Positions 4,803 to 27,500 of a stretch of 41,127 nucleotides of DNA are shown in pieces (position 1 is the first letter of the stretch; the number at the start of each line of letters is the position of its first letter). A program made the position numbers and the translations under genes. The notes under the pieces are model-generated. The model did not search any database and was not told the origin of the DNA. It was given only the letters and a program-made list of their open reading frames with translations. This DNA comes from a virus, in the IMG/VR virus record IMGVR_UViG_3300032296_000397, positions 1 to 41,127 of that record. One strand, 5' to 3'.

Positions 4803-5636
4803 ATGCGTACCTTATTGCAAGTAGTAGGAGTGGAATCTCCAGCAGGGCATGCCCTTCCTGAGATTCTTCCTCAACTCACCAGCAATCAAGTTGTATTCCG
4901 TCAGGCACAATTACACTTGGTTGCAGCGCAACCAGGTGGTGGCAAAACCATGCTTGCTTTATGGTACGCAATCACATCTAAAACTCCAGCCTTATATTTT
5001 TCAGCAGACTCTGATTCTCGAACGATTGCTCTTCGTGCAGGTGCAATCCTTATGGATAGATCAGTAACTGATGTGGAAAGAATGATGGACTCGGAGGCAT
5101 CTGTCCTCCTAGAAGATGCACTGGCTGATGGTGCTGGGCATATTCGATTTAGTTTTGATCCGTCTCCTTCTTTACAAGATATCGAAGAAGAGATTGAAGC
5201 TTGGATTGAATTGCACGGTGCTCCACCATCAGCAATTTATATTGATAACTTAATGAACGTCGCTGCAGTTAGTGACAATGAGTGGACAGCATTGCGTGAT
5301 GCAATGTCTGCATTCCATTACATGGCTAGAGAATATGAATCAGCATTCGTAGTTCTACACCATGTATCTGAAAATGAAAAGATGTCTAAGCCTAACTACC
5401 CAGCCCCACGTAAAGCTTTAATGGGTAAGGTCTCCGCCTTACCTGAACTGGTACTGAGCGTAGCGTTAGATGGTATAGCCAATGCATATAGAGTTGCTGT
5501 TGTAAAGAATCGCCATGGTAAGGCTGATCCAACAGCAGAGAACTATGTAACTTTATCTGTTGAACCAAGTCATATGAGTTTATATAACTCTCCTGCTGAA
5601 TTGCAAAGAGCAAGGACAATGAGACAATGGCAGTAA
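4803..5636 (+). CDS. DnaB/RecA-like ATPase
   Basis: The 277 residues form one RecA-fold domain. It has Walker A AAQPGGGKT (41-49), the SADSDSRTIALRA segment typical of DnaB/KaiC-like ATPases, Walker B AIYIDN (144-149) and a later FVVLHHVSEN strand that suits a sensor. The DnaB N-terminal domain is absent, so this is a short form. It may be the replicative helicase paired with the primase genes downstream, or a recombinase mediator working with the upstream nuclease. The neighbours support either use. Confidence 0.8.
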   Translation: MRTLLQVVGVESPAGHALPEILPQLTSNQVVFRQAQLHLVAAQPGGGKTMLALWYAITSKTPALYFSADSDSRTIALRAGAILMDRSVTDVERMMDSEASVLLEDALADGAGHIRFSFDPSPSLQDIEEEIEAWIELHGAPPSAIYIDNLMNVAAVSDNEWTALRDAMSAFHYMAREYESAFVVLHHVSENEKMSKPNYPAPRKALMGKVSALPELVLSVALDGIANAYRVAVVKNRHGKADPTAENYVTLSVEPSHMSLYNSPAELQRARTMRQWQ

Positions 5637-6148
5637 TAGAATTAACTGAAGATGAGATTATGGATTCACTTAGGTTTATCCACAGGGTTAGAAAGAACAA
5701 GAAAGAGTTTGATGTTACGGATCGTAAGTTTGATAAAAATAATTCCTCGTATTCCGTCAATCTTATGGGTCGCTTGGGTGAGGTGGCATGTGCTAGGTTC
5801 CTTGGGCTACCGACGGATAACACGATTACGCCTGGCGGTGATAACGGAAACGACCTCCAAACGATATTGGGAAGATCTATACAGGTTAAGACGTCGACAC
5901 TACCGCAATTAATATTTAATGCACCAGAGTTATTTGTTTCAGATCTGGCTGTACTTGTAAAGTTTTCTGGGGATAAACAACTTCCACATGTGGATAGTTT
6001 GTTTGATGTTATTGGTTGGACAACACGAGAAAATTTTCTTGCTAATCATTACTTACATGACTATGGTTACGGAACTCGATTAGTTATGGACGCTAATCAA
6101 TTACAACCGATTGAGGTACTAGTCAATGAAATATCCAGACTTCACTAA
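5627..6148 (+). CDS. Putative PD-(D/E)XK-fold nuclease
   Basis: This is a 173-residue protein overlapping the ATPase gene by ten bases. The stretch MGRLGEVACARFLG (helix with E52), then GNDL (D76), then the strand SIQVKTS (Q86-V87-K88) matches the E...D...(E/Q)xK layout of restriction-endonuclease-fold enzymes. The Q in place of E is common in several phage members. The C-terminal region has no recognised domain. It is likely a structure-specific or sequence-specific DNA nuclease. The fold is inferred from motif spacing alone. Confidence 0.62.
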   Translation: MAVIELTEDEIMDSLRFIHRVRKNKKEFDVTDRKFDKNNSSYSVNLMGRLGEVACARFLGLPTDNTITPGGDNGNDLQTILGRSIQVKTSTLPQLIFNAPELFVSDLAVLVKFSGDKQLPHVDSLFDVIGWTTRENFLANHYLHDYGYGTRLVMDANQLQPIEVLVNEISRLH

Positions 6149-6401
6149 TGCAACTTGTAAAGAAATTGGTTTAGAGTTTTTCTTTCAAGAGCATAACAAC
6201 GCTACTAGTAGTGAAGAACGGAAAGCTAAATCAATATGTAAGGAGTGTCCAGTAATGAAAGAATGTTTAGAGTGGGGTCTTGCCCATGAGTCATATGGTA
6301 TATGGGGTGGCACTTCTCCGAGAGAGAGAATGCGAATTAGAAAAAGACTTGGTATGGAAGTTAAACAAATATTAGTAAGTCATTATGTCAACACCAAGTA
6401 A
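6126..6401 (+). CDS. WhiB-family Fe-S transcription factor
   Basis: This 91-residue protein has the four WhiB cluster cysteines C11, C38, C41 and C47 (CxxCxxxxxC), then GIWGG at 58-62 and a basic C-terminal tail (SPRERMRIRKRLG). WhiB proteins hold a 4Fe-4S cluster and bind region 4 of the principal sigma factor. The phage TM4 homologue is known to interfere with host WhiB2. This gene overlaps its neighbours on both sides and so is made with the replication proteins. It is the strongest single pointer to an actinobacterial host. Confidence 0.95.
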   Translation: MKYPDFTNATCKEIGLEFFFQEHNNATSSEERKAKSICKECPVMKECLEWGLAHESYGIWGGTSPRERMRIRKRLGMEVKQILVSHYVNTK

Positions 6402-7154: not shown

Positions 7155-7484
7155 ATGAATCAACCTGAATTTCTTGAAGCAGTCTTTAATCATTATGGAT
7201 TAACCTTGCCACAAGGTGAGAAGTCTATTCTCTGCCCTGTGCATGATGATTCACGTAAGTCTGCTTCAGTTAATTCAGAGAAGGGCGTCTGGGTATGTTA
7301 CGCATGTAGCAGTAGTGGTTCTGGTATTCACATAATCATGGCTCGTGAGAAGCTAACATACTCAGAGGCTCGTAAGTGGGCAGAGAAAAACATAGGATCA
7401 GAAAAGAGTAAAGAGTTTGCCACGCCTATGCGTGGCAGAAGACGAACCAATGGTCGGTGGACACCGCCAAGATTGCGGAAGTAA
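7155..7484 (+). CDS. Primase zinc-finger protein (CHC2 type)
   Basis: The 109 residues carry the DnaG N-terminal zinc finger: CPVH (C27, H30) and CYAC (C48, C51), separated by a short beta hairpin, then a SGSGIHIIM helix. The C-terminal tail is basic (MRGRRRTNGR). In DnaG this domain reads the template and is fused to a TOPRIM catalytic domain. Here the TOPRIM part is a separate gene at 8213-8857. A perfect 8-bp hairpin (7418-7437, loop CTAT) lies within the coding sequence near the 3' end. Confidence 0.85.
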   Translation: MNQPEFLEAVFNHYGLTLPQGEKSILCPVHDDSRKSASVNSEKGVWVCYACSSSGSGIHIIMAREKLTYSEARKWAEKNIGSEKSKEFATPMRGRRRTNGRWTPPRLRK

Positions 7485-8017
7485 TGACAACCATTATTGG
7501 TATACAAAAGAATGATCACTGCGTTATCGCAGCCGACTCTCGTACAACTACAGAGAAGGGCAGACCATACTCTCATCCTATTATTACAAAGATTACCAAG
7601 CGTGGTAAGTATTTAATTGCAGGGGCTGGCACGACTATGCCATGCGATACGATCCAACACATCTGGAAACCACCAGCACTACCACCTTCAATCAAAGATC
7701 AATATCATTTTATGATTACAGATATAGTTCCAAGTATGCGTGAAGCTTTAAAGGAGAATGGCTGGGTAGCAGATGATAAGTCAGATGACTATGAGTTTTT
7801 ATTTTTAATTGCAGTTAATGGAATCATCTATGAAGTAGATGATACCTTCTCGGTATTCTTACGTGATGATGGTATATATGGAATAGGATCAGGATCTTCT
7901 TACGCAGTTGGTGCGGTACAACAAGGCGCAACTTGGCGTAAGGCGTTGCAGATAGCAGCGAAGAATGATGTGTATACTGCACCTCCATTCATAATGCACA
8001 GGCAGGAGAAGAGATAG
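7484..8017 (+). CDS. Proteasome-beta/HslV-like Ntn hydrolase
   Basis: The 177 residues start MTTIIGIQKND; removal of Met would expose Thr1, the nucleophile of proteasome beta and HslV subunits. In mature numbering AAD17SR is exactly at the catalytic Asp17. K35 in ITKIT matches Lys33 after a two-residue insertion. The GIGSGSSYA turn (133-141) and A-x-x-x-DVYT (about 158-165) match the GSGG-YA and D-x-YT signatures. The ATG overlaps the primase stop (TAATG). An in-frame GTG at 7457 would add nine residues as a propeptide but is less likely. No HslU-like ATPase is present, so it may self-assemble or join host partners. Confidence 0.85.
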   Translation: MTTIIGIQKNDHCVIAADSRTTTEKGRPYSHPIITKITKRGKYLIAGAGTTMPCDTIQHIWKPPALPPSIKDQYHFMITDIVPSMREALKENGWVADDKSDDYEFLFLIAVNGIIYEVDDTFSVFLRDDGIYGIGSGSSYAVGAVQQGATWRKALQIAAKNDVYTAPPFIMHRQEKR

Positions 8018-8223
8018 TGGGAAGACTTAGTTTGTATGCAGGGTTCAACCGTCTTTATTGTTGGGGTCTTGGTATCAATTACCATACTATGACTTCAGTA
8101 TATGAAGATCTAGATTCTCTTGACTTGATTGAGTATGTAGATGCCAGAGTAATACGTTTTGATTTCCTAATATTTTATATTAACATCACCCAATGGGCGA
8201 AGCAGGAGTGGGATGAGAACTAA
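8017..8223 (+). CDS. Small hypothetical protein
   Basis: This 68-residue frame opens with GTG overlapping the preceding TAG, has GGAGAAGAG upstream, and overlaps the next gene by eleven bases, as is usual in this operon. It is rich in Tyr, Leu and Ile, with a hydrophobic stretch RFDFLIFYINITQW near the C-terminus that is too short and polar for a confident membrane segment. No family is recognised. Alternatively, the interval is merely a spacer between the Ntn hydrolase and the primase. Confidence 0.5.
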   Translation: MGRLSLYAGFNRLYCWGLGINYHTMTSVYEDLDSLDLIEYVDARVIRFDFLIFYINITQWAKQEWDEN

Positions 8224-8857
8224 TCCAAAGCTAATTGAACTCTGGACTAGGGCAGCCAAGCAATACCACGATGCTCTTGCTGGTTCACCAGCAGAGGCTT
8301 ACTTAAAAGAGCGTGGGATTCTTGATGGTGCTAGTCGGTTCATGCTTGGGTATGTATCAGAGGTAGCACCTGGACATGAGGATAGAATCAAGAACCATTT
8401 ATCTATCCCATATATAACTGAGGCTGGTGTGGTTGGGTTTAAGTTCCGTCGTATCGATGGCGGAGATCCTAAGTACATGATACCTACTGGTCAGAAGCAC
8501 CACCTATATAATGTTGATGCAATACTCAACGCCATTAATAAAGTTCTAATAGTAGAAGGAGAAATAGATGCAATCAGTGCAACACTTATTGGTCATCCTG
8601 CTGTCGCTGTTGCAGGAGTTAACGCTTGGAAGCCTCACTTTGCTCGTTGCTTTGATGGGATAGGTACGGTAGTAATCTGTACTGACAACGATGCTAAAGA
8701 AGATGGGTCAAATCCTGGGCAGGAATTAGCTAGAAGATTACAAGATGCAATACCTCAAGCGGTGCGTGTGTCGCTACCACCTGACAGCGATGTTAATAGT
8801 ATAATTTGTAACCAAGGAGCGCAAGCATTGACTGACTTAGTCAATGCAATTAACTAG
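8213..8857 (+). CDS. DnaG-like primase, TOPRIM domain
   Basis: The 214 residues include the primase lead-in (EAYLKERGILDGASRFMLGYV), a fold-start SIPYITEAGVVGFKFRRIDG, and the TOPRIM motifs LIVEGEIDAIS (E115-G-E117) and TVVICTDNDA (D158-N-D160). The zinc finger is encoded separately at 7155-7484. AGGAG precedes the ATG. There is no C-terminal helicase or polymerase domain. With the zinc-finger protein and the DnaB-like ATPase it would form a primosome that hands over to the host polymerase. Confidence 0.87.
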   Translation: MRTNPKLIELWTRAAKQYHDALAGSPAEAYLKERGILDGASRFMLGYVSEVAPGHEDRIKNHLSIPYITEAGVVGFKFRRIDGGDPKYMIPTGQKHHLYNVDAILNAINKVLIVEGEIDAISATLIGHPAVAVAGVNAWKPHFARCFDGIGTVVICTDNDAKEDGSNPGQELARRLQDAIPQAVRVSLPPDSDVNSIICNQGAQALTDLVNAIN

Positions 8858-11865: not shown

Positions 11866-12091
11866 TCGGTATCTCCTCTGGAGACATAACCACAATGTCA
11901 ACCATTGCTTCCTCTGTCTCCTTGTGTATGTCTGACTCTATAAGTTCAGGCTCATCTTTTTCTCCTGCATAAATATGCAGGTAATCAAGAGCCTTGATTA
12001 TGTAGTTAGCCATACGAATAGATATCTTTGGTGGTACGAAGGGAGTTGGATTATCCAACTCATCAACGTACTTCTGTAATGGATTCTCCAT
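11858..12091 (-). CDS. Hypothetical acidic protein
   Basis: This 77-residue acidic protein has a helix SIRMANYIIKALDYLHIYAG and a C-terminal stretch EEAMVDIVVMSPEEIP. No family is recognised. It starts where the DUF932 gene ends and overlaps the next gene by eight bases, so it is translated in the same chain. Confidence 0.63.
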   Translation of the reverse strand: MENPLQKYVDELDNPTPFVPPKISIRMANYIIKALDYLHIYAGEKDEPELIESDIHKETEEAMVDIVVMSPEEIPNG

Positions 12092-13074
12092 TAGATTCCT
12101 TTCGTTAGTAGTTCAAGAGCTTTGCTCTTGATGCGATCAGCAGAACCAGTAACGATACGCTCTGCTCGCACTGCCTCAGCCTTGTGACTGTAGTGATCTG
12201 CATACTCCACGATAGATTGGAACACACCGAACCTAGTTCCGTATAGTTCCTCTTGTGTACCAGTATCACCACGATAGATTGCTTTAGCAGTCTGACGTGC
12301 CACTGTTGCTGAGTTGAACTGACGCTTCTGCCCTGCACTTAACAGTGCATAAGGTGAGTTCTCAATGATGCTTGGTATAGACCACATCTTCTCGAAGATG
12401 TTATCCACTTCTGCATCTGTTAACTTCTCGTTGATAAGTTTGTTACCGATAAGTTCGTAGAACTTGATGCCCTCATAGGTAACAGGGATGATGCGCTTGA
12501 TATCCTCAATGCGGAACTTAGCATTGGTTGTGTGCTTGAGTGTATAAGTACCAGCCTTAGCAAAGATACCTGCTATCTGATTGGTACAACGCAAGCGTTG
12601 GATTGATGGTGAGATTTGTAGTGCAGTTGAACCATCGTGTGATGTCCTTGCTACAAGGTAACAAGCATGAGGATCGTTGGCTATCTTAACTTCGTTAGGT
12701 AGCTCGAGCACCATGTATACCTGCGCTCCACCTCTTACCTCACCAGCGAATGCATATCTTGCATCGCCTGAATCAACCAGTGCATCTAGACCTGAGAACA
12801 TTTCCTCATTCTGAAACACCTTGTATCTACCACCGACAGTGCCAAGCACTGACTGTGTTGCATCCTTATTGGTACGAACTGTTGCGAATGTTGATGGCAC
12901 TTCGAGGGTGTTGACACCATCATTCGATACGGCTAACGCTTGTACGTCAGCCAGTTGTACATGCCAGTCGAGACCAGCCTGTTGTGCTGCATCCTTTGCG
13001 GATGTAGCGGTTACTGCCTCACCGATAATGCGGTATGCACTACGGCGTCGAGGGTTGGATATTACTGTACTCAT
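12091..13074 (-). CDS. DUF932 family protein
   Basis: The 327-residue protein has the features of DUF932/TIGR03299 phage-plasmid proteins: SVLGTVGGRYKVFQNEEMFSGLDALV, then GAQVYMVLELPNEV, SPSIQRLRCTNQIAGI, and a helical C-terminus with a GTRFGVFQSIVEYADH segment. The start MSTVISNP at 13074 follows a good AGGAG; an in-frame extension further upstream has no ribosome site. The family function is unknown, though members sit in early, host-takeover or anti-defence regions of many phages and plasmids. It is the largest gene of the leftward block and has its own candidate promoter. Confidence 0.88.
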   Translation of the reverse strand: MSTVISNPRRRSAYRIIGEAVTATSAKDAAQQAGLDWHVQLADVQALAVSNDGVNTLEVPSTFATVRTNKDATQSVLGTVGGRYKVFQNEEMFSGLDALVDSGDARYAFAGEVRGGAQVYMVLELPNEVKIANDPHACYLVARTSHDGSTALQISPSIQRLRCTNQIAGIFAKAGTYTLKHTTNAKFRIEDIKRIIPVTYEGIKFYELIGNKLINEKLTDAEVDNIFEKMWSIPSIIENSPYALLSAGQKRQFNSATVARQTAKAIYRGDTGTQEELYGTRFGVFQSIVEYADHYSHKAEAVRAERIVTGSADRIKSKALELLTKGI

Positions 13075-13105
13075 TTGTTTCTCCTGTTCGTTTGGTTGTG
13101 GGATT

Positions 13106-13134
13106 AGTATCTCATGTACGGCTGTCGAAATCAA
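13106..13134 (-). promoter_or_regulatory. Candidate promoter for the DUF932 gene
   Basis: Read on the minus strand, TTGATT (13134-13129) and GATACT (13111-13106) are separated by 17 bases. They end about 30 bases before the DUF932 start codon. The hexamers are close to sigma-70 consensus but not perfect, and the site lies at the end of the upstream gene. Confidence 0.45.
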
Positions 13135-13381
13135 CAACTGCTTCTGAGAGTGTGTCATGATAGTGACCATTTCTGGCATGCACCAAGCCATCTTCGCTTG
13201 GATATATTCTCCATGTTACATACAGGTCAGCGATCCGTTTGATTGGTTCGACCTGCTGTCTGTCCTCTGTCCATAGACAGAGTGCTAGGTATGTATCTGG
13301 GTCTGTGTCCCAAGATCTCTTGAGATCTACTATGACCGCACCATTATTGATGCGGTCACCGATGTGAGGGATGAACATCAT
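13112..13381 (-). CDS. Hypothetical protein
   Basis: This 89-residue protein is beta-rich with an N-terminal IGDRINNGAVIVDLKRS and a later YVTWRIYPSEDG strand. The start ATG overlaps the upstream stop (ATGA). No family is recognised. The gene contains several perfect inverted repeats (7-bp stem at 13264-13281; AGATCTC/GAGATCT at 13313-13328; 8-bp stem with a 10-base loop at 13334-13359). Confidence 0.6.
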   Translation of the reverse strand: MMFIPHIGDRINNGAVIVDLKRSWDTDPDTYLALCLWTEDRQQVEPIKRIADLYVTWRIYPSEDGLVHARNGHYHDTLSEAVVDFDSRT

Positions 13382-13599
13382 TGTATTGCACCTACCTTTC
13401 TTAGTCGTTCGATAATTGTAAAGGCACAGTTGTCATAACTTTCTGCACCATTACCATCTGCACCTTCTAACCAAAGAATTACATTCTTTAGTCTGATTGT
13501 TGAGCCATTACCATACAAGCTCATGAGTAATGCACCTGCTGCGTAGTCAGACACCTCAGCAAATTGCTCACCGCTTGGGTCATATACTTTTACTTTCAT
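13378..13599 (-). CDS. Hypothetical protein
   Basis: This 73-residue protein begins MKVKVYDPSGEQFAEVSDYAAG and has an amphipathic C-terminal helix FTIIERLRKVG. It is likely a small alpha/beta domain. No family is recognised. It overlaps the gene before it (13596-13772) and the gene after it by four bases each. Confidence 0.62.
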   Translation of the reverse strand: MKVKVYDPSGEQFAEVSDYAAGALLMSLYGNGSTIRLKNVILWLEGADGNGAESYDNCAFTIIERLRKVGAIQ

Positions 13600-13772
13600 T
13601 TACTTGCTCCTTCCGCTAACATGTTTTTGATTATATCAACCTGCTTATTCCTTGCCTGAACCCGAAGGTCCATTGCCTTTTGCATCAGTCCGTGTGCCAT
13701 GTCCTCGGCTTGGTTAGCCAAGACCATGAGTTCACCGACTGTCATATCTTCAGTGCGGATACTGCTTTCCAT
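13596..13772 (-). CDS. Small helical hypothetical protein
   Basis: This 58-residue frame has a strong AAGGAG upstream of its ATG and a stop that overlaps the next gene. It is almost entirely helical and Met-rich (LMVLANQAEDMAHGLMQKAM), which could dimerise as a coiled coil. No family is recognised. It is the first gene after hairpin copy A. Confidence 0.68.
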   Translation of the reverse strand: MESSIRTEDMTVGELMVLANQAEDMAHGLMQKAMDLRVQARNKQVDIIKNMLAEGASK

Positions 13773-13811
13773 TTGGTTCTCCTTTCGGTTGGTGTTGCTG
13801 CCATATATCTA

Positions 13812-13830
13812 AACAGATCTTTGATCTGTT
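13812..13830 (-). repeat. Intergenic triloop hairpin, copy A
   Basis: The perfect 8-bp stem AACAGATC / GATCTGTT has a three-base loop (TTT on the plus strand, AAA on the coding strand). It begins directly after the stop of 13832-14107. On the coding strand it is flanked by TTGATA before and TAGATA after, 18 bases apart, so it could be an operator inside a promoter, a terminator or a processing site. Confidence 0.8.
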
Positions 13831-13831
13831 A

Positions 13832-14107
13832 TCAATGAAAGACAGGTGCGCCCCATGTCTCGAGCATGCCATCGCTTGTGTCTTTGTCATCAAGCAGGGC
13901 ATCAGCCAGATTACATACCTCTTCTGGGAACTTGCCCCAGTTATCAGCGTTGTAATTGAACTCTCCACCTGTAGGTGGGAGGATACGTGCGTCTATGTCT
14001 ACGACTTGGCGTGTGCCATCTGAGTATTCTTCTAGCGTTCCCCATAGGTGGACGCCCCACTCCTTACCATCAACTGTTATCCAGTTGTATTGTGTTATGT
14101 CAGTCAT
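13832..14107 (-). CDS. Hypothetical protein
   Basis: This 91-residue, Trp-rich protein (YNWITVDGKEWGVHLWGTLEEY) has a short strand-turn core and a C-terminal acidic helix EEVCNLADALLDDKD. It has the look of a small beta domain found in other actinophage early genes, but I cannot name a family. Its stop abuts hairpin copy A. Confidence 0.62.
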   Translation of the reverse strand: MTDITQYNWITVDGKEWGVHLWGTLEEYSDGTRQVVDIDARILPPTGGEFNYNADNWGKFPEEVCNLADALLDDKDTSDGMLETWGAPVFH

Positions 14108-14405
14108 TATCTATCTCCTTTACTAGTTGGTTATCCTTGAGATACTCAAGGGTAAGTTCGTCGATAGTTTCGTAGTCCAATCCGTAGAAGTGTTGACCCA
14201 TATCTACGAACCAATTGTCTTTGACAATTTTATCGAAGGCTTCTTCACGAGTGGACAATAGGGTTAGGTCATGTAGTTCAGGTCGCTTGTATATATCCTC
14301 AAGCGTTTGCCATATGGCAAGGTCTTGCATCCCTAACCTTTTATAGTAACTGGTGTAATTAGATAGCGTTGTTTCTACTTGCGTGATCATGAATGATGCT
14401 TCCAT
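14100..14405 (-). CDS. Hypothetical protein
   Basis: This 101-residue helical protein includes DLAIWQTLEDIYKR and ETIDELTLEYLKDNQLVKE. No family is recognised. The start may be the ATG at 14405 or the one five codons later. A perfect 7-bp hairpin (14135-14151, loop ATA) lies near the 3' end of the gene. Confidence 0.62.
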   Translation of the reverse strand: MEASFMITQVETTLSNYTSYYKRLGMQDLAIWQTLEDIYKRPELHDLTLLSTREEAFDKIVKDNWFVDMGQHFYGLDYETIDELTLEYLKDNQLVKEIDND

Positions 14406-14413
14406 TTGTTACC

Positions 14414-15136
14414 TCATTTCTTGGTTGAACTGAATCGTATGTCGGCTTTGCCGACGATGCATAGCCCGCAGCTGACGCAGGCTGACCCGCTCTTGGATAT
14501 GAGTGGGATTTGCTTGGTCAATGCTGGACATTTAGCACCGACCTTGCCAGTTATGCGAAGCATTTCTTTCTCCGCATTTGCGAATGTATCTGACAGCCAC
14601 GCTAGTTTAGTGTCTGTCTCACGCCGAACTTGTTCGGCAATATGTTTGTTCTCTCTGTCTGCACTGTAATACAGTGACAGATTGTCAAGTCCTGATAGTG
14701 AGTAGGCTGCGGATCGCACTCGTGTATAGCACCAGAACTGTATCTCTGGGTGCATCATGATTACTTTCTGCCATGCATACTCATATGTTTGATTGAAGAA
14801 GTCGCCGTCCCAGTGGATGCGGAATAACTTCGGGGCATTCCGTTTCTCACAGTCCTTGACGAAGTCATTGATCATGTCATCAAGTAGTTCAACCATTTGG
14901 TTGATGTCGGCGTCCTTCAATAGTTGCCAGTTGTGAATGAGAACTTCTCTCACTCCCTTGTATACACGCTCGAGCTTGCCTGCATAACACACCTTCTCGC
15001 AGATACTTGTGGCATCAGGACATGAGAAGGCTTTGCCTGCTGGCAAGCCAAAGGTGTTGCGAATTGCTGAAGCCTTGCCAGTTGGCGAGACTAGGTTGGT
15101 GACTTTGCGGTCATGACTTCTAAGTAACGACAGCAT
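14414..15136 (-). CDS. GP88-like cysteine-cluster protein
   Basis: The 240-residue protein has an N-terminal cluster FSCPDATSICEKVCYAGK (C39, C46, C50), a central FRIHWDGDFFNQTYEYAWQKVI segment and a C-terminal ACVSCGLC (C220, C223, C226). This pattern matches the Gene product 88 group first noted in mycobacteriophages, whose function is unknown. The cysteine spacing suggests zinc or an Fe-S cluster. The DGD and WCYTRV segments recall a TIM-barrel-like core, but no radical-SAM CxxxCxxC is present in canonical form. Confidence 0.78.
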   Translation of the reverse strand: MLSLLRSHDRKVTNLVSPTGKASAIRNTFGLPAGKAFSCPDATSICEKVCYAGKLERVYKGVREVLIHNWQLLKDADINQMVELLDDMINDFVKDCEKRNAPKLFRIHWDGDFFNQTYEYAWQKVIMMHPEIQFWCYTRVRSAAYSLSGLDNLSLYYSADRENKHIAEQVRRETDTKLAWLSDTFANAEKEMLRITGKVGAKCPALTKQIPLISKSGSACVSCGLCIVGKADIRFSSTKK

Positions 15137-15176
15137 CTTGCTCCTTTCTGTTGGTTAATTGTTGCCCTATATTTAA

Positions 15177-15195
15177 AGCACATCTTTGATGTGCT
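15177..15195 (-). repeat. Intergenic triloop hairpin, copy B
   Basis: The stem AGCACATC / GATGTGCT with a TTT loop has the same 8-3-8 geometry as copy A. Two stem positions are changed on both arms, so pairing is kept. The right end overlaps the TAG stop of 15194-15418. On the coding strand it is followed by TTAAATATAGGGCA, close to the TAGATATATGGCA after copy A. Confidence 0.8.
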
Positions 15196-15418
15196 ATTTA
15201 TTGCGGATAGCCCACGCTAAATCATCTGCGTATCGCCTGCTATCAGCCCATGCATTCTCTCCATAAAAGTATTTGGTTCTAACATTAGAACCACCTACCT
15301 TGAAGAAGAAGTCGTCGATATCAGCAGTGAATACTTGGACATACTCATTGCCGTTCTCGTGTGGGATCCATTGCTTAACCTCACCCACCTTTGGCTTTGT
15401 TAGTCGTGATTTATACAT
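15194..15418 (-). CDS. Hypothetical protein
   Basis: This is a 74-residue basic and aromatic protein (VKQWIPHENGNEYVQVFTADID, then KVGGSNVRTKYFYGENAW). The sequence suggests a small beta sheet followed by a helix. No family is recognised. Its ATG overlaps the preceding gene and its stop codon forms part of hairpin copy B. Confidence 0.62.
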   Translation of the reverse strand: MYKSRLTKPKVGEVKQWIPHENGNEYVQVFTADIDDFFFKVGGSNVRTKYFYGENAWADSRRYADDLAWAIRNK

Positions 15419-15596
15419 TGCTTTCCTCCTCTGCTTCTACTCCTTCTACATAGCCTTCGGCTAGTAGACCTTCGAAGAAGTCCCATATATTTACGAGACC
15501 TGCTGTTGTCTTTGTGTCCAGTGCTGGCACATACTCTTGTGCTCGAGATAACGCAGCACCGAACGCTTGTATATCCTCATACTTGTAGCCCATCAT
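15411..15596 (-). CDS. Hypothetical protein
   Basis: This 61-residue, acidic, mostly helical protein includes DIQAFGAALSRAQEYV and IWDFFEGLLAEGYVEG. The first two codons are both ATG and either could start. It overlaps both neighbours by a few bases. No family is recognised. Confidence 0.6.
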   Translation of the reverse strand: MMGYKYEDIQAFGAALSRAQEYVPALDTKTTAGLVNIWDFFEGLLAEGYVEGVEAEEESNV

Positions 15597-15790
15597 GATT
15601 GCTCCTCCTTAAAGTCGCCTTCTCTTAGGCGAGTGATTACTTCATCAACAATTTCATTATAGAAATTGTCTGTTCGTCCTTGTATTTCATCTATTGCTGA
15701 GGATAACTCTGCCTCACTAGGCATTGTTGCCTCATCTTCGAACTCGCTCTCGAATAAATAGAGCAGTGTTTCATTGGTCATGTCACACAT
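15593..15790 (-). CDS. Hypothetical acidic protein
   Basis: This 65-residue acidic helical protein (LLYLFESEFEDEATMPSEAE) starts at ATG 15790, with AAGGAG seven bases upstream lying inside the end of the previous gene. A second in-frame ATG follows three codons later. It might mimic DNA because of its strong negative charge, as some anti-defence proteins do, but that is speculation. Confidence 0.6.
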   Translation of the reverse strand: MCDMTNETLLYLFESEFEDEATMPSEAELSSAIDEIQGRTDNFYNEIVDEVITRLREGDFKEEQS

Positions 15791-16418
15791 TGGTTTTCTC
15801 CTTATCTTCTATGGCGTAGCCATTTGCTCCGCATTTATGTTGGTGTTCATCTTCGTCATACTCATTCCAGTATTCATCATCATGTTCCCATTGCTTGCCA
15901 CATGCGTAGCATTTCTGGGCGAACTCGTTGATTGTTATACACTGACCATTGATGAACTCAAGTTCACCGCCCCAGCCTGTCTCTTCCTCGAAGTCAAGGT
16001 TGAAACTGACATCAGGGTATTGCTCTGAAAGAGCAGTCATTGCTCCTTCAGCAACACCCCAAGGGGTATGGAATTGGTATTGAAGTGAGGTCTCGTCCGC
16101 TTCCGTGAGCTGGCACTCGCTGGCGTCCCACTTAACACCCCAATTGCTGGTGTTCCAGTTATACCAGTTGTATTCGGTATCGCCGTAGGATTTTCCATCA
16201 CTCCAGCCTTTGGCTGAATGGTATTCGTCCATCTTGTCAGCAGGTGGGCGAATGATGTTCCAAAAAGAGAAATCTTTTTGAACAGTTTCAGTTGTCCATT
16301 CATCAGACCGAAGGTCTTGATGTTTGGTTTCGTAAGGCGCAGATAACTGCGCCTTTATCTTGCTGATTACTTGAGGCTCTGCCTCAATTAGTAGTGTGTT
16401 ATAGCACCAGTTAGGCAT
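15783..16418 (-). CDS. Api92-like ferredoxin-fold protein
   Basis: The 211-residue protein begins MPNWCYNTLLIEAEP, the hallmark of Api92-like phage and conjugative-element proteins with a ferredoxin-like domain. Later signature stretches are FSFWNIIRPP, YNWNTSNWGVKWDA and FHTPWGVAEGAMTALSEQYP. A C-terminal extension adds CYACGKQWEHDDEYW...HQHKCG, which could bind zinc. Function is unknown; homologues are common in mobile elements. It overlaps both neighbours. Confidence 0.8.
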   Translation of the reverse strand: MPNWCYNTLLIEAEPQVISKIKAQLSAPYETKHQDLRSDEWTTETVQKDFSFWNIIRPPADKMDEYHSAKGWSDGKSYGDTEYNWYNWNTSNWGVKWDASECQLTEADETSLQYQFHTPWGVAEGAMTALSEQYPDVSFNLDFEEETGWGGELEFINGQCITINEFAQKCYACGKQWEHDDEYWNEYDEDEHQHKCGANGYAIEDKEKTNV

Positions 16419-16758
16419 TTTGGTATTCCCCTTTCGCTAGTCCATACTTTACGAATGTATCAAAGGCAACTCCGTCAACAGTTTTGTTGATGAAGTCAAT
16501 CTCTACGCAAAGATCCCATGGATCTTCCATCTCGGTGCTTGCGTAGATACCGAAGCCAGTCTCTGACTTCCATTGTTCTCCAATTAAATTGGAGATTGCG
16601 ATACGAGTTCCATAAGAAGGGTCATCCCAGCGTGGCTCTGCTACGGACAGAGCACAAGCCAAGTCAACCTCCCATGAATCTGCGCCCCAGTGTGAGTAAA
16701 GCACCACACTTGGTGTGTTTTCGTATTGCTTGAATACGAAGTTAACTCTTGCTCCCAT
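16411..16758 (-). CDS. Hypothetical protein
   Basis: This 115-residue protein starts MGARVNFVFKQYENTPSVVLYSHWGADSW and contains RIAISNLIGEQW. A beta-rich start is followed by a helix, resembling small phage proteins of unknown role that often sit beside Api92-like genes. No family name can be given. The start codon is two bases beyond the stop of the zinc-binding gene upstream. Confidence 0.63.
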   Translation of the reverse strand: MGARVNFVFKQYENTPSVVLYSHWGADSWEVDLACALSVAEPRWDDPSYGTRIAISNLIGEQWKSETGFGIYASTEMEDPWDLCVEIDFINKTVDGVAFDTFVKYGLAKGEYQNA

Positions 16759-18657: not shown

Positions 18658-20547
18658 TTGGAAAGACAATTAGCACCAGAAGAAGCAAGGAAAGAACTTA
18701 TCCTCTTGGTGCGCCAAGGGCGCACTATTGCTGATGGTTTAAAAGTTATTGGTAGATCTAGATCTTGGTATGATACCCAACGCCGAGAAGCCGAGGGCTT
18801 CTCAGCTTTAATAGATAATGCTCGGTTTAGAACACAGGACCTCGCTGGTGAAGCTCGGTCCAATTTGTCTGATTTTGCAGAGTTCTCTGAAAAGTATCTT
18901 GGTACCAAAGTACCACTCCATATGCTTAATGTGGTATCCATGTTGGAAGGTAAAGATCCAACCTGGTTACATGATTCCATGGTTTATGAAAAGGGATCGG
19001 CGGGCTTATCCCGCCTCTTGGTAAACGTACCACCCAACCACGCTAAGACCATGACCATCACAATTAACTACGTAACTTATCGAGTAGTTAAGAATCCCAA
19101 CATTAACGTCATGGTTATATCCAAGACACAGGAACAAGCAAAGAAGTTTTTGTATGCGATCAAGCAACGCTTGACGCATCCTCGGTATGCAGACCTTCAG
19201 GTAGCCTTTGGTCCAGCCGATGGTTATAAAGCAACCGCCGACCAGTGGTCGGCTACCAAGGTATATCTTGGTGGCGACGTACGTGAGTCAGATGCTAAAG
19301 ACCCAACTATAGAAGCTATAGGAATGGGCGGGCAGGTTTATGGTAACCGTGCCGATCTCATCGTCCTCGATGACGTGGTCACTCTGAGTAATGCTTCAGA
19401 GTGGTCTAAGCAACAAGAATGGATTAGGCAAGAAGTTGCCTCTCGTCTTCCGCCTGGTGGCGGTCAACTCTTGGTAGTTGGTACCAGAGTCTCAGCAGTT
19501 GATCTATATAAAGAATTAAGAAACCCAAGCCACTACACCGATGGTGTACTCCCTTGGTCATATTTGTCCATGCCTGCGGTCTTAGAATACGCAGACGATC
19601 CAAAGGATTGGAAAACTCTTTGGGAGAAATCTGAACAACCACTTACTGAGGATGATGTCCCAGACCAAGATGGAATGTTTGATCGATGGACAGGACAGCG
19701 TCTAACGGCTGTCCGAAACGAGGCAGGACCATCTAAGTGGTCACTGGTTTACCAGAACCTCGATATTGCGGAGAATGCAATCTTCGACCCGATGTGCGTC
19801 AGAGGCGCAGTAAACGGAATGAGAAAATCGGGTGCTTTGGTTGCAGGCGCAGCAGGTCATCCTGAAAACTCTAATAACTTTTTTAGAGTCATTGGTATAG
19901 ATCCAGCAATGTCTGGAGATACCGCTGCCATCGCCTATGCGGTTGACCGCAGGTCACATAAACGCTATGTCATGGATGTTCACATCATGACTGCCCCTAC
20001 ACCTGCAGCAATCCGTTCTCTTATCAAGGAGTGGACCGATGCGTATAAACCGCATACGGTCATTGTGGAATCAAATGCTTTTCAGCTTTTCCTTACACAA
20101 GACGAAGAGATTCGTAACTTCCTGTCAACACGAGGTGTTAGTTATAGACCTCATTACACAGGAAACAATAAACAGGATCCCGAGTTCGGCGTAGCCTCAC
20201 TCGCTCCTTTATTCGGCACCATTACCAAGCGGGATGGTGTCATGAATAACTTTAAGCATGCTGACGATAACTTAATTGAATTGCCAGATAGCTCGAAGAA
20301 TGAACACGTAAAGAAGTTAATCGAACAACTTGTAACCTGGCAACCAGGAGTACAAGGCAAGAAACTCAAGATGGACGCAGTCATGGCACTGTGGTTCTGT
20401 GAGATCGTAGCAAGAGAAACTTTACTTACTTCAGCAAATGTACCTAACTTTTTAAGTAATCAATTTACTTCTAGAGGAGACATCGAGTCTCGGTACATCA
20501 TCAACTTAGATGATCTAGCTGCAGCGCAGCGGACTGCGAGATTGTGA
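18658..20547 (+). CDS. terL: Large terminase subunit with N-terminal HTH
   Basis: The 629 residues (TTG start at 18658, GGAGG just upstream) form the DNA-packaging motor. Residues 1-60 contain a helix-turn-helix-like unit (EARKELILLVRQGRTIADGLKVIGRSRSWYD region) of the kind found in small terminase subunits. The ATPase follows: a variant Walker A VPPNHAKT (124-131) and Walker B ADLIVLDD (232-239). The C-terminal RNase H-like nuclease has RVIGIDPAMSGD, HTVIVESNAF and KMDAVMALW, carrying the three acidic residues. No separate small terminase is visible nearby. An in-frame extension to TTG 18592 lacks a ribosome site. Confidence 0.93.
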   Translation: MERQLAPEEARKELILLVRQGRTIADGLKVIGRSRSWYDTQRREAEGFSALIDNARFRTQDLAGEARSNLSDFAEFSEKYLGTKVPLHMLNVVSMLEGKDPTWLHDSMVYEKGSAGLSRLLVNVPPNHAKTMTITINYVTYRVVKNPNINVMVISKTQEQAKKFLYAIKQRLTHPRYADLQVAFGPADGYKATADQWSATKVYLGGDVRESDAKDPTIEAIGMGGQVYGNRADLIVLDDVVTLSNASEWSKQQEWIRQEVASRLPPGGGQLLVVGTRVSAVDLYKELRNPSHYTDGVLPWSYLSMPAVLEYADDPKDWKTLWEKSEQPLTEDDVPDQDGMFDRWTGQRLTAVRNEAGPSKWSLVYQNLDIAENAIFDPMCVRGAVNGMRKSGALVAGAAGHPENSNNFFRVIGIDPAMSGDTAAIAYAVDRRSHKRYVMDVHIMTAPTPAAIRSLIKEWTDAYKPHTVIVESNAFQLFLTQDEEIRNFLSTRGVSYRPHYTGNNKQDPEFGVASLAPLFGTITKRDGVMNNFKHADDNLIELPDSSKNEHVKKLIEQLVTWQPGVQGKKLKMDAVMALWFCEIVARETLLTSANVPNFLSNQFTSRGDIESRYIINLDDLAAAQRTARL

Positions 20548-22316
20548 CATTAATGAAAGATTTACAACAAGCCTTTGAGCAATTAAAAGCTCGTAACTCC
20601 GAACGTGATAGACGTATGCGTGAGGTGGCACTAGTAAGAGCAGGACAAGCAGATCAGGTATTCCAAGGATTATTTCCTGAAGGAGTATGGTCACGTCCTA
20701 TCATTGCCAACCTTATTGATGTTGTTGCTCGAGATGTTTCTGAACAAGTCGGTGTTCTACCTACCATTACTGCTGCTGGGGATTCATCATTAGATGATAA
20801 CCAGCGTACCAAAGCTGACAAGCGTACAAAGATTGCTAACTACTATGTAGCAGCATCCAGACTAGGTACAGAGTTACTGCGTGGCGCAGACCAACTAGCA
20901 ACATACGGTTTCGTTCCTATTAGAGTTGAACCAAACTTTAAAGATAAGAGACCACACATCCATATTGAAAACTCTATGGGTGCATATTTTGATCAAGATC
21001 GTTTCGGTGTAGTTAATGTTTATGCTCGGCTATATCACCGTAAAGCAGGTGATTTAGCAGCACACTTCCCAGAGTATGCCGATCAAATTTTACAATCTGG
21101 TGCATGGACTCGTGGTGATGGTAACTCATTACTACAGGTTGTCCGTTGGACAGATAAAGACAAAACAGTTTTATTTTTACCAGATCGTGGAGGTTTAGTT
21201 CTTGCGACAACACCAAACAAAACAGGTACAGTCCCAGTTGCGATTGCTCAACGTCCTTCACTCGATGGCGAAGCTAGAGGTCAGTTCGACGATGTGTTGC
21301 CAGTCTACGCAGCAAAAGCAAGACTTGCGCTCCTCACTATGGAGGCTGTTCAAAAATCTGTTGAAGCTCCCCTTGCTCTTCCTAATGATGTTACTTCTCT
21401 ATCCATTGGTCCTGATTCGGTCATTCGTTCGAACAGTCCTGAGAAAATTCGTAGGGTTAATCTAGACGTACCTCAATATGCATTTGCTGAGAACAATGTT
21501 CTAGCAGATGAAATGAAATTAGGAACTCGCTTTCCTCAAGCTCGTGCAGGACAAGCTGAAGGTTCAGTTGTTACAGGTCAGGGTGTTAAAGCACTTATGG
21601 CTGGGTACGACTCTCAAGTTAAAATTTATCAATCAATTCTTGGCGAAGCAATTGGTCAAGCAATCTCATTTGCCTTTGCAACTGATGAAGCATACTTCCC
21701 TGAGTTAAGTCGTGAAGTATCTGCAACAGCTAACGGAGTTCCATACAAATTAAAATACAAGCCAAGTTCTGATATCAATGGTAACTATGGCGTAACCGTT
21801 GAATACGGTTTAATGGCAGGTTTAGATCCTAACCGTGCTTTGGTGTGGGGTCTACAGGCAAGAGGAGATAAATTAATTTCTCGAGGAATGTTGCGTCGCA
21901 ACCTTCCTATCTCACTAAATGCTGGTGAAGAAGAGAGAGCAATTGACATTGAAGAGATGCGTGATTCCCTTAAGGCATCCGTATCTTCTATGGCTGCTGC
22001 AATTCCACAAATGGTAATGCAAGGTCAAGATCCAATGAAGATTGTTGAAAAAATGGCAAGTGTTATTACTGATCGTAAAAAGGGTATTCCTCTTGAAGAT
22101 GCAGTAGCAAATGCTTTTAAGCCAGAACCAGCACCAAAACAACAACCAGCACAACCAGGAATGCCAGAAGTACCAGCAGGTCCTGAGCCAATGGCTGGTG
22201 GTCAAGCACCACAACTTCCACAAGGTAGACCAGCAATGCAAGAACTTCTTGCAGGTTTAACTGGTGGAGGAAATCCAAATCTATCAGCGAGAGTTACTCG
22301 TCAAATACCAGCATAA
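20544..22316 (+). CDS. Portal protein
   Basis: This 590-residue protein overlaps the terminase stop (GTGA); ATG 20553 is an alternative start. The N-terminal half has portal-like features (SRPIIANLIDVVARDVSEQVG, LLRGADQLATYGFVPIRVEPN, AYFDQDRFG). The middle is helical, and the C-terminal tail is Pro/Gln/Gly rich and disordered. The portal forms the dodecameric ring that takes up DNA from the terminase and joins the tail. Position directly after terL and length support the call. Confidence 0.86.
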   Translation: MTLMKDLQQAFEQLKARNSERDRRMREVALVRAGQADQVFQGLFPEGVWSRPIIANLIDVVARDVSEQVGVLPTITAAGDSSLDDNQRTKADKRTKIANYYVAASRLGTELLRGADQLATYGFVPIRVEPNFKDKRPHIHIENSMGAYFDQDRFGVVNVYARLYHRKAGDLAAHFPEYADQILQSGAWTRGDGNSLLQVVRWTDKDKTVLFLPDRGGLVLATTPNKTGTVPVAIAQRPSLDGEARGQFDDVLPVYAAKARLALLTMEAVQKSVEAPLALPNDVTSLSIGPDSVIRSNSPEKIRRVNLDVPQYAFAENNVLADEMKLGTRFPQARAGQAEGSVVTGQGVKALMAGYDSQVKIYQSILGEAIGQAISFAFATDEAYFPELSREVSATANGVPYKLKYKPSSDINGNYGVTVEYGLMAGLDPNRALVWGLQARGDKLISRGMLRRNLPISLNAGEEERAIDIEEMRDSLKASVSSMAAAIPQMVMQGQDPMKIVEKMASVITDRKKGIPLEDAVANAFKPEPAPKQQPAQPGMPEVPAGPEPMAGGQAPQLPQGRPAMQELLAGLTGGGNPNLSARVTRQIPA

Positions 22317-24396: not shown

Positions 24397-24553
24397 AAAG
24401 TTTGAAGAGAATCTTGAGTACCTGGGATTTGAATTAGCACCAGTTGCATGGGATTTAGCACGATTTGATTTTGAATCAGATGATGATCGTTATGCATTAT
24501 TAGAAGAGTTAACTGCTGGAAGGGAAATTAATCCGAATGGGAATATGGGATGA
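24383..24553 (+). CDS. Small acidic hypothetical protein
   Basis: This 56-residue frame starts at ATG 24383 inside the end of the preceding gene and ends inside the start of the giant gene. It is helical and acidic (FKKFEENLEYLGFELAPVAWDL, then DDDRYALLEELTAG). The overlaps on both sides are typical of a translated gene in this operon. Function is unknown. Confidence 0.7.
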   Translation: MKIFKKFEENLEYLGFELAPVAWDLARFDFESDDDRYALLEELTAGREINPNGNMG

Positions 24554-27500
24554 CTGGAGAGCTGAAACAGGCACAACTTCTACACCTAACCCTTTAAGCA
24601 GAGTTAACGAATTTAAAAAAGAACAATTAGATAAAACTGCTGTAGGTAAGGTAGAAGAAAAAGTTGGTGCTGGCATTGCCAGTGGAATAGAAAAAGCTCA
24701 AGCTAGTCCATTTAGATTCTTAGTTAACCCTGCTCTTAATGTAATGGAAAAAGTTGGCGGTATGGTAAGTGCCGTTACTCAAACAGTTGCAACACCTTTC
24801 CTTGCTGCTGAAGCAGCACGTCAAGGTCAAACAAAAGGATTTGTACAAAGCTTTAGATTTGCTAGAGAGCAAGCCAAGAAGGTTTCAATGGGTCAGGCTC
24901 TTGCCACCCAGGTTGGTCAAACAGTTGGCGCATTCTTACCAGACCAAATTACACCTACGTTCATGGATAAAGACTTTAACGTCTTTGATGACAAGCAAAG
25001 AAACCAAGCATATAAAAATGAATTTCTTGGATGGCTTGCATCTGGAAGTACTGACTTAGGACTTGCCCTACTTGGAACTAAAGGTGCTGGTAGTGCAGTT
25101 AAAGCAGCAAAGACCTCAGCACTTGGTTCTGAAAAGATAGTAACCAAAGCTGATCAAGATCTATTTAAAAAGAATTTAGAAGATGCAGTTGCATGGGGTG
25201 CTCGAAATGATGGGACTCCACCACCTACAGGATTATCTAAATTAGTAGATGATGCAGTTAAAACAAAAGATGTAAGTAAGATTATTGCTAACCCATTAGT
25301 ATCTAATGGATCTAACCCTAATCGCTCTGCAGCGATTATGGCTCGCATTGATAACCATAGAGATATGGCAGATTATCTATTAGCTGAGCGTGGAGATAAG
25401 TTAGCTTTCCAAAGATTTTTTACTAAATCACCTTTAATGGCTGATCACCTAGATAACTATGGAATGAATAATATAGATCCCATTTCGGATCTATCTAAGA
25501 TTCATACAGAAGCTTTAGATCCTAAGTTAACACCTAGATATCAACAACTTATCGAAGATAAGAAAGCAAGAGACAGAGAATTTAGATACGCCTTAGAAGG
25601 TTTTAAGGATGATATTAACGTTGGTCAGTTCTCATCTTATCGTCCAGGTAAGTTTGCATCTATTGAATCGGTTAAACTTGCTAAAGAAAAGATTAAACTT
25701 GAAGCCAAGTTTGGTGATCTAAAGTTATTTGGTAAAGATGGTGGCAACGGTTGGCGTACTCAGGTTTACCAATCAAATCCATATGATCGTGTTATTCGTA
25801 CTATTGCTTGGGTAGGGTCAGGTCGCCCACAGGGAATGATTAATATATCAAACCCACGTAAGTATGAATCTGCAATGGATGTGCTTTCAGATCTAAACCG
25901 TCTACAAATCCTTCGTGGTCAAGAAGGTACTGACTTTAAACGTAAAATGGTATCTAGGTTTTTAAATGCCCAAGATGATACTCAACGTGCTATTGCCTTA
26001 GATTACATTGAGCAACAGGTAATGTTAAAACTAGCTAAGTTTGCAGGTGCTGGAGATGTTCAAGATATTAGAACCGCTGCTGACCAAGTTAAATTAATTA
26101 CTAATTGGCATGCTGCAGTTAAAGGTCGCCGTCAAACTATTAAAGAATATGCCACAAAAAATGGTTTTGTTCCAGATGAAAACGGTGGAGTTAACGTAAG
26201 TAATTTCTTTTCTATCTCAAACGAAGCATCAATCATTCCAATGCTTGATTTCCGTAAGTTGGAAATAGAAGTTATATTAAATTCTAAAAGAGTTTTGGGT
26301 GAAGTATCTCCAATTACCTCTGGGCAAGTTAAAGGAGCCGTTGCTTCTAAAGCCCTTATGGGTACTGGTGAGTTTTTAGATTTATCAAACGCTGTATTCA
26401 GCAACTTAAACCTTATTCGTCTTGCTTACATACCAAAGAACTCTATGCTTGATCCGTTTGCTAGAGCAAGTATGGCTCTTGGTAACCTAAGTCTACTTAA
26501 AAACGTACTTCCAGGTATAAACAACCTTGTTCATAATGCTAGTTTAAGAACCGATATGGCAAAAAGATTTATCCCAGGGTCTCCTTCTAACCATGCTCGT
26601 AAAATGGAGAAGCAAGCTCAGAAAGAAATGGACATTCTGGCTAACCAATTAAAGCCAGTAGTCGAAACATGGGAAACTGCTCAAAAAACTTTTGATGCTG
26701 CAGAGATAAAGCTAAATGCTGCGATAGCAGCACAGGCAAAAGCCGAAGCAGCACTACGCAAATCAACTAAAACTAATAAAGCGGATCTTACTGCAGTTAA
26801 AAACAATGCAGACTATGAGATGTTTAAAGCCCAAAGAGAATATGTTGATGCAGATGATGCGTTAACCAATAGTGCTGACATGGTAAATGGTGTTTCTTCC
26901 TTAATGAAGAAACATAGAGATGTTCTTACTACTGCTGCAACACATAGAGCAGAGTTACAACAGTACAAATACCTAGGACAAGATAAAGAAATCCTAGAAG
27001 TTAATGGTAAAAAGTACACCATTGATGGTTTGGCTGATCCAAATATCCGTGGAGCCAGTGCTTATCTGGCTGAGATGGATACTGCTGCCAACTTTATTAA
27101 TACTCAGACACAATCACAGATTTCTAGACAATTAAGAGCCGATGGAACAAGGTTTGTAACCATTGCTCGTAATGATGTTAAGCCATATATGAATGCCTTG
27201 ACTCACATAGCCAATCGTCAGATTCGTCAAGAGCTAGACATGCCATTAGGTATGTTATTTCGTGGTGATTCACCAATCGAAATTGTTAGATACTTATATA
27301 AAGACACTAAAGGTGCTGAGTATCGCCGTCGTATGGAATCTCGTGCTGGTAGACCAATGGGTCAAGATGACTTCTTGAACTGGGCTACAGCAACTCAAGA
27401 TAAATTGTTTAAGATGTATCCAGATCCTAACATTCGTCAGATTGTTTTGAATAGAAACGTCAGCATTGACGAAATGACCGCAGCATTAAAGAATAGACCA

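Follow-up and report, generated by a model that had tools for sequence, protein, structure and literature searches.

A phage-encoded proteasome-type Ntn hydrolase resembling BPH and HslV belongs to a little-noticed actinophage branch and may act without an ATPase partner

Introduction

The described systems closest to the protein studied here are BPH, HslV (ClpQ) and proteasome homologues already reported from phages. BPH, a tetradecameric double ring for which structures are available (PDB 5OVS, 5OVT and 5OVU), binds epoxomicin and carries a long acidic loop that has been proposed to help it recognise substrates with no unfoldase involved, and the catalytic lysine, found at position 33 in the proteasome and HslV, is at position 37 in Td-BPH (PMC5777263). 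Fuchs, Alva and Lupas (2021) gave names to 22 proteasome homologues. PPH and AAH are among those that occur in phages, and none of the phages in which they found AAH was specific to actinobacteria; no AAA+ partner could be identified for the novel homologues, and in proteasome beta subunits it is chiefly the helix 3-4 hairpin that joins ring to ring (PMC8665760). Lone HslV-like genes are also known in jumbo phages (PMC7823757). Our literature search turned up no function for any phage proteasome homologue.

Here we describe a gene of this kind in a viral record of 41,127 nucleotides (IMG/VR IMGVR_UViG_3300032296_000397, hereafter the window), together with its relatives in other phages.

Results

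The gene and its surroundings

The gene starts at ATG 7484 and stops at TAG 8015-8017, and its product begins MTTIIGIQKN. The mechanically called open reading frame starts at an upstream GTG (7457); we took ATG 7484 as the start, since at this very position of the alignment the homologues show a start codon (ATG, GTG or TTG). The features of the window that bear on the gene are as follows.

4803-5636, plus strand: DnaB-like replicative helicase, a RecA-type ATPase and not an unfoldase (PHROG 243, 6.6e-75; AAA_25, DnaB_C)
6126-6401, plus strand: WhiB-like regulator, a marker of an actinobacterial host (PHROG 472, 1.1e-20)
7155-7484, plus strand: primase zinc-ribbon gene (Pfam Zn_ribbon_DnaG, 1.1e-11)
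7484-8017, plus strand: proteasome/BPH/HslV-type Ntn hydrolase, 177 aa (open reading frame, PHROG 1040, AF2, Foldseek)
8017-8223, plus strand: 68-aa open reading frame between the Ntn and TOPRIM genes (sequence, locus comparison)
8213-8857, plus strand: primase TOPRIM gene (Toprim_3, 4.3e-10; PHROG 47, 1.9e-32)
20544-22316, plus strand: portal gene (PHROG 104; synteny with E7)

The zinc-ribbon stop overlaps the Ntn start (TAATG) and the Ntn stop overlaps the start of the 68-aa frame (TAGTG), forming a packed run of four genes that ends with TOPRIM. The 68-aa frame, which overlaps both of its neighbours and was seen in the window's own subclade only, had no match in Pfam or PHROGs. Elsewhere in this mostly plus-strand genome, a minus-strand block at 12091-16758 carries genes with DUF932, GP88 and DUF1281_C (Api92-like) domains.

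Fold and profile matches

Reading the window from its letters alone, an earlier sequence-only reading had called the 7484-8017 product a proteasome-beta/HslV-like Ntn hydrolase, and profile comparisons agreed with it. PHROG 1040 ('peptidase HslV family'), a profile broad enough to match E. coli HslV and BPH-like proteins too, matched residues 1-175 at 8e-25. Pfam PF00227 (Proteasome) gave the window protein alone 19.5 bits, under the gathering score of 22.4; of the 55 family members, 52 matched it at E<=0.1, the best at 2.8e-9. The best matches in a PDB sequence search were HslV (4e-4) and BPH (1e-3). A mixed profile placed BPH first (8e-25), and a phage-only profile found HslV (3.5e-6) and BPH (1.2e-5) about equally well, so that the designation of BPH as nearest rests mainly on structure and on the pore loop.

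Structure prediction and a structural search, which the sequence-only reading had called for, also returned the Ntn fold. With an alignment of 15 close homologues the AF2 model reached a pLDDT of 38; with 55 diverse rows, including six bacterial rows of which some are BPH-like, it reached 93.2 (pTM 0.89). The latter model is an alpha-beta-beta-alpha structure with the proteasome-type order of strands and helices, in which both helix pairs are present (helix 2, residues 73-91). Taken with the PHROG 1040 and Pfam results, this model puts the resemblance to the proteasome family beyond chance. Foldseek against the PDB gave 987 matches at E<=0.001, with BPH first (E 1.4e-10, TM 0.73-0.78), HslV next (TM about 0.65) and 20S beta after that, an order to be read with the BPH-like rows in mind, as these could have pulled the model towards BPH. 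Many phage proteins in BFVD matched the model as well.

20S proteasomes are frequent in Actinobacteria, and the shared fold would suit a mimic or poison of the host 20S proteasome, as had been suggested from the sequence, acting by co-assembly with host subunits. However, the NCBIfam model for the bacterial 20S beta subunit (TIGR03690, PrcB) did not match the window protein at E<=0.1, although HslV models did (HslV equivalog TIGR03692, 27.9 bits against a cut-off of 157.75); the closest structures are BPH and HslV; and the whole active site, which a poison would not need, is conserved. We therefore regard mimicry of the host proteasome as extremely unlikely.

Active site and selection

Counting residues from the Thr that follows the initiator Met, the predicted active site is encoded at the following positions.

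7487-7489, plus strand: codon of the catalytic Thr1, exposed once Met is removed (Thr or Ser in all homologues having an N terminus)
7535-7537, plus strand: codon of the Asp17 equivalent (invariant in 173 distinct homologues)
7589-7591, plus strand: codon of the Lys33 equivalent, Lys35 in the window protein (172 of 173 homologues)

The three residues proposed from the sequence held up across 173 distinct homologues. Position 1 is Thr in 168 and Ser in 4 of the 172 that have an N terminus, Asp17 is present in every one, and the lysine, expected after a two-residue insertion, is missing from a single homologue, apparently E. coli HslV itself, which the alignment displaces by two residues. Lys35 has normal spacing, lying between the Lys33 of the proteasome and HslV and the Lys37 of BPH. 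Two further motifs had been pointed out: GSG-x-YA proved to be conserved, whereas the first residue of D-x-YT varies (Asp in 99, Asn in 56 and Ser in 11). Values of dN/dS within the window clade were 0.04-0.16 (leaving aside one pair with four changes only), as expected of a gene under strong purifying selection. Since Thr/Ser1, Asp17 and the lysine are kept and dN/dS is about 0.04-0.16, the window protein is very probably a working enzyme. The sole broken copy that we found (locus L302, 993-1544) is interrupted by one in-frame stop.

Pore loop and helix 3-4 hairpin

Two further elements of the protein were compared with BPH and HslV.

7757-7795, plus strand: acidic loop from helix 2 to strand 7, at the pore-loop position, NGWVADDKSDDYE, net charge -4 (secondary structure, charges, comparison with BPH; PMC5777263)
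7892-7975, plus strand: shortened helix 3-helix 4 hairpin, 28 residues (length comparison with BPH-like proteins and HslV)

Almost every homologue has an acidic loop in the pore region (net charge mostly -2 to -4), compared with +1 in E. coli HslV and -6 in a BPH-like protein. The hairpin has 28 residues in 155 of the 173 homologues and is thus nine residues shorter than that of HslV (37) and about eight shorter than in BPH-like proteins (36-37). Given the ring-contact role of this hairpin in relatives, assembly of the window protein may differ from theirs; by analogy, the double ring may not form. It is possible, though less likely than not, that the actinophage proteins are a distinct, structurally modified subfamily in which the hairpin has been shortened and the ring-ring contact lost or changed, leaving a single ring, an open assembly or a monomer: an exposed, ATP-independent protease of proteasome type that would be a core gene of the dominant freshwater actinophages.

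Loss of the ring-ring contact might also have enabled a non-hydrolytic or monomeric derivative, such as a connectase-like protein ligase, and the 28-residue hairpin is what speaks for it. In connectase, however, the first helix pair is missing and strands 3 and 4 are separated by an insertion (PMC8665760); the model of the window protein has both helices and shows no such insertion, making such a derivative very unlikely.

No partner ATPase

The sequence-only reading had seen no partner ATPase in the window, and we likewise found no match to PF07724 (AAA_2, ClpX/HslU-type) or PF00004 (AAA) there. PF07724 was absent from all 24 records searched (the window and 23 related ones) and present in 14 of 14 control genomes. 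PF00004 did match in nine small-genome relatives and in phage E7, in proteins the size of the DnaB-like helicase; the E7 match maps to that helicase, and we rejected these proteins as partners of the Ntn hydrolase. Neither the window nor its small-genome relatives yielded an AAA+ unfoldase, in agreement with what was reported for other novel proteasome homologues (PMC8665760). DSL-LC01, a phage of 129 kb, has two PF00004 matches, and these we count against an ATP-independent mode of action.

Relatives and tree

Scanning viral contigs with the window protein gave 77 loci at 50-100% identity, and with the E7 copy at least 80 loci at 43-92%, other scans yielding smaller groups; IMG/VR contigs are fragments and many of these loci overlap. 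The nearest deposited phages are OX376640 (LanE43-AprE7) and OX376641 (LanE43-AprF5), at 37-38% identity; these, here E7 and F5, were the first phages isolated on 'Ca. Nanopelagicales' (PMC10202952). Relatives annotated as 'protease' occur in Arthrobacter phages Hum25 and Pitbull and Microbacterium phage Pumpernickel, and one annotated as 'ATP-dependent protease subunit' in the Actinomycetia phage DSL-LC01. These four are about 30% identical to the window protein and come from other genome types with other neighbours. Bacterial homologues in the genome collection were distant only (24-31% identity).

In a tree built without E. coli HslV, rooting with which produced a long-branch artefact, the actinophage proteins group in a single clade (98/91), separate from BPH-like and proteobacterial-phage proteins; deep positions are uncertain, given the long branches of Hum25, Pumpernickel and L335. 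By this placement the window protein shares an actinophage branch with those of E7 and F5, a branch little noticed among phage proteasome homologues. Hum25, Pumpernickel and DSL-LC01 fall in the same clade; the first two share the 28-residue hairpin, whereas that of DSL-LC01 is long. Its WhiB gene and its kinship with E7 suggest that the window phage infects a freshwater actinobacterium. Longer HslV-like proteins (288-388 aa) with C-terminal extensions were seen near phoH in Vibrio and Pseudoalteromonas phages (L082 3789-4984, L344 and L348).

Gene position across phages

The window phage and E7 are syntenic, with homologous terminase, portal, head, DnaB-like helicase, RusA, sigma and both primase genes, and differ in the place of the Ntn gene, which directly follows the portal in E7 and lies between the primase genes in the window. 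Around 100 loci, some from the same contigs, have the gene between zinc ribbon and TOPRIM, and about 80, including cultured E7 and F5, have it after the portal. It is also found between TOPRIM and sigma, after sigma, between DnaB and RusA and, in the DSL-LC01 group, beside WhiB. In a single family of syntenic phages, this single-copy gene occupies at least five positions. The association with the primase locus made in the sequence-only reading, which had suggested checking related phages for homologues beside the primase, holds for the window clade only. The gene itself is kept: all 76 TOPRIM-selected loci with upstream DNA carry it, as do all 11 genomes selected by portal without regard to the Ntn gene, once per phage genome. 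One contig of 82,688 bases (IMGVR_UViG_3300027754_000069; L197 and L234) has two portals and two Ntn genes about 40 kb apart, and is apparently an assembly artefact that unites two related phage genomes.

As the portal position is found in the E7 clade and in lineage L307, which is sister to the replication-block lineages, the most economical history on this tree, some forks of which are weak, would take six changes in total: a single transfer of the gene out of the structural block into the replication block, and later reshuffling. On the evidence of gene order, the primase neighbourhood is incidental, and since the position varies within one family the protein most likely acts in trans and not as part of the primase. 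We also considered whether the gene splits an intact primase and rejected this, as the zinc-ribbon and TOPRIM genes are separate in E7 and in Streptomyces phage Manuel too, although no other gene lies between the two. Manuel has the same overall plan, including the split primase, and lacks the Ntn gene; the window phage resembles a Beephvirinae relative from fresh water. Very large genes follow the portal region in the window (24537-29504, 1655 aa) and in L079 (7228-12522, 1764 aa), with one of 4,941 bases at the same place in Manuel, and possibly encode an internal virion protein.

The place directly after the portal in E7/F5-type phages is the usual one for a head-maturation (prohead) protease, and the window showed no other recognisable protease of this type. 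However, the replication block is where the gene lies in the window clade and its sister clades, and Manuel, which shares the order of terminase, portal, head and primase genes, has neither the Ntn gene nor an annotated prohead protease. We consider a role in head maturation quite unlikely; capsid maturation and host-proteasome mimicry are both poorly supported.

A less easily dismissed alternative, to which we give a lower but real chance, is a specialised processing or anti-host protease that cuts one or a few host or phage proteins (e.g., a regulator or a defence protein) in place of bulk peptides. A lone subunit under strong purifying selection would suit such a role, as would its packing among replication genes in the window clade, where it is probably co-expressed with them, and the authors of the BPH study suggest a specialised substrate spectrum for BPH (PMC5777263). 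Against it, no candidate partner or substrate stays adjacent, the neighbours changing completely between clades.

Discussion

Our preferred reading, to which we assign a probability of roughly 0.6, is that the window protein is a catalytically competent phage-encoded peptidase of the BPH/HslV side (proteasome-like group I) that acts independently of ATP in the infected cell. What follows on assembly into rings, on peptidase activity and on when and on which substrates the protein acts we infer, as we do all that is said here of function. Met1 would be removed by the host, exposing Thr1 as the nucleophile, to be activated by Asp17 and Lys35. The subunits would probably form rings with the active sites inside, and entry may be controlled by the acidic pore loop, by analogy with BPH. 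Working without a dedicated ATPase, the peptidase would, in the infected actinobacterial cell, degrade or trim polypeptides that are short, unfolded or accessible in some other way. That BPH bound epoxomicin and was without activity on model substrates (PMC5777263) counts against this explanation, as does the shortened hairpin.

BPH is the best structural match, and shares with the window protein Thr1, Asp17 and a lysine spacing above 33, an elongated acidic pore loop, the lack of a partner unfoldase and a Pro-Pro motif between helices 1 and 2 that aligns with 5OVS. The window protein differs in being phage-borne and in a clade separate from BPH-like proteins, and in not having their full-length hairpin. 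HslV shares the fold, the active site and GSG-x-YA, but the window protein falls below the equivalog cut-off, its pore region is acidic and not basic, its hairpin is shorter and it has no HslU. Like PPH and AAH, it is a phage-encoded proteasome-like subunit without an AAA+ partner, and PHROG 1040 covers it; PPH, compared here by its published description only, has about 140 aa and is missing helix 2 (PMC8665760), whereas the window protein has 177 aa and possesses it. Nor is it a first of its kind, phage proteasome homologues without ATPase partners having been published in 2021 (PMC8665760) and relatives in cultured actinophages already bearing the annotation 'protease'. New here are, as judged from the tree and gene order, its place in an actinophage branch with E7 and F5 and the incidental nature of the primase neighbourhood, and the combination of a BPH-like acidic pore loop with a shortened hairpin.

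Phage proteasome homologues have so far been described from sequence only. Here a single-copy, strongly constrained gene of this type is found in phages related to those of 'Ca. Nanopelagicales', which are among the commonest freshwater bacteria, and the short ring-contact hairpin makes a clear structural prediction. As E7 and F5 are in culture, their host 'Ca. Planktophila' strain LanE-43 grows and both carry the gene, the role of a lone proteasome-type subunit in a phage becomes testable.
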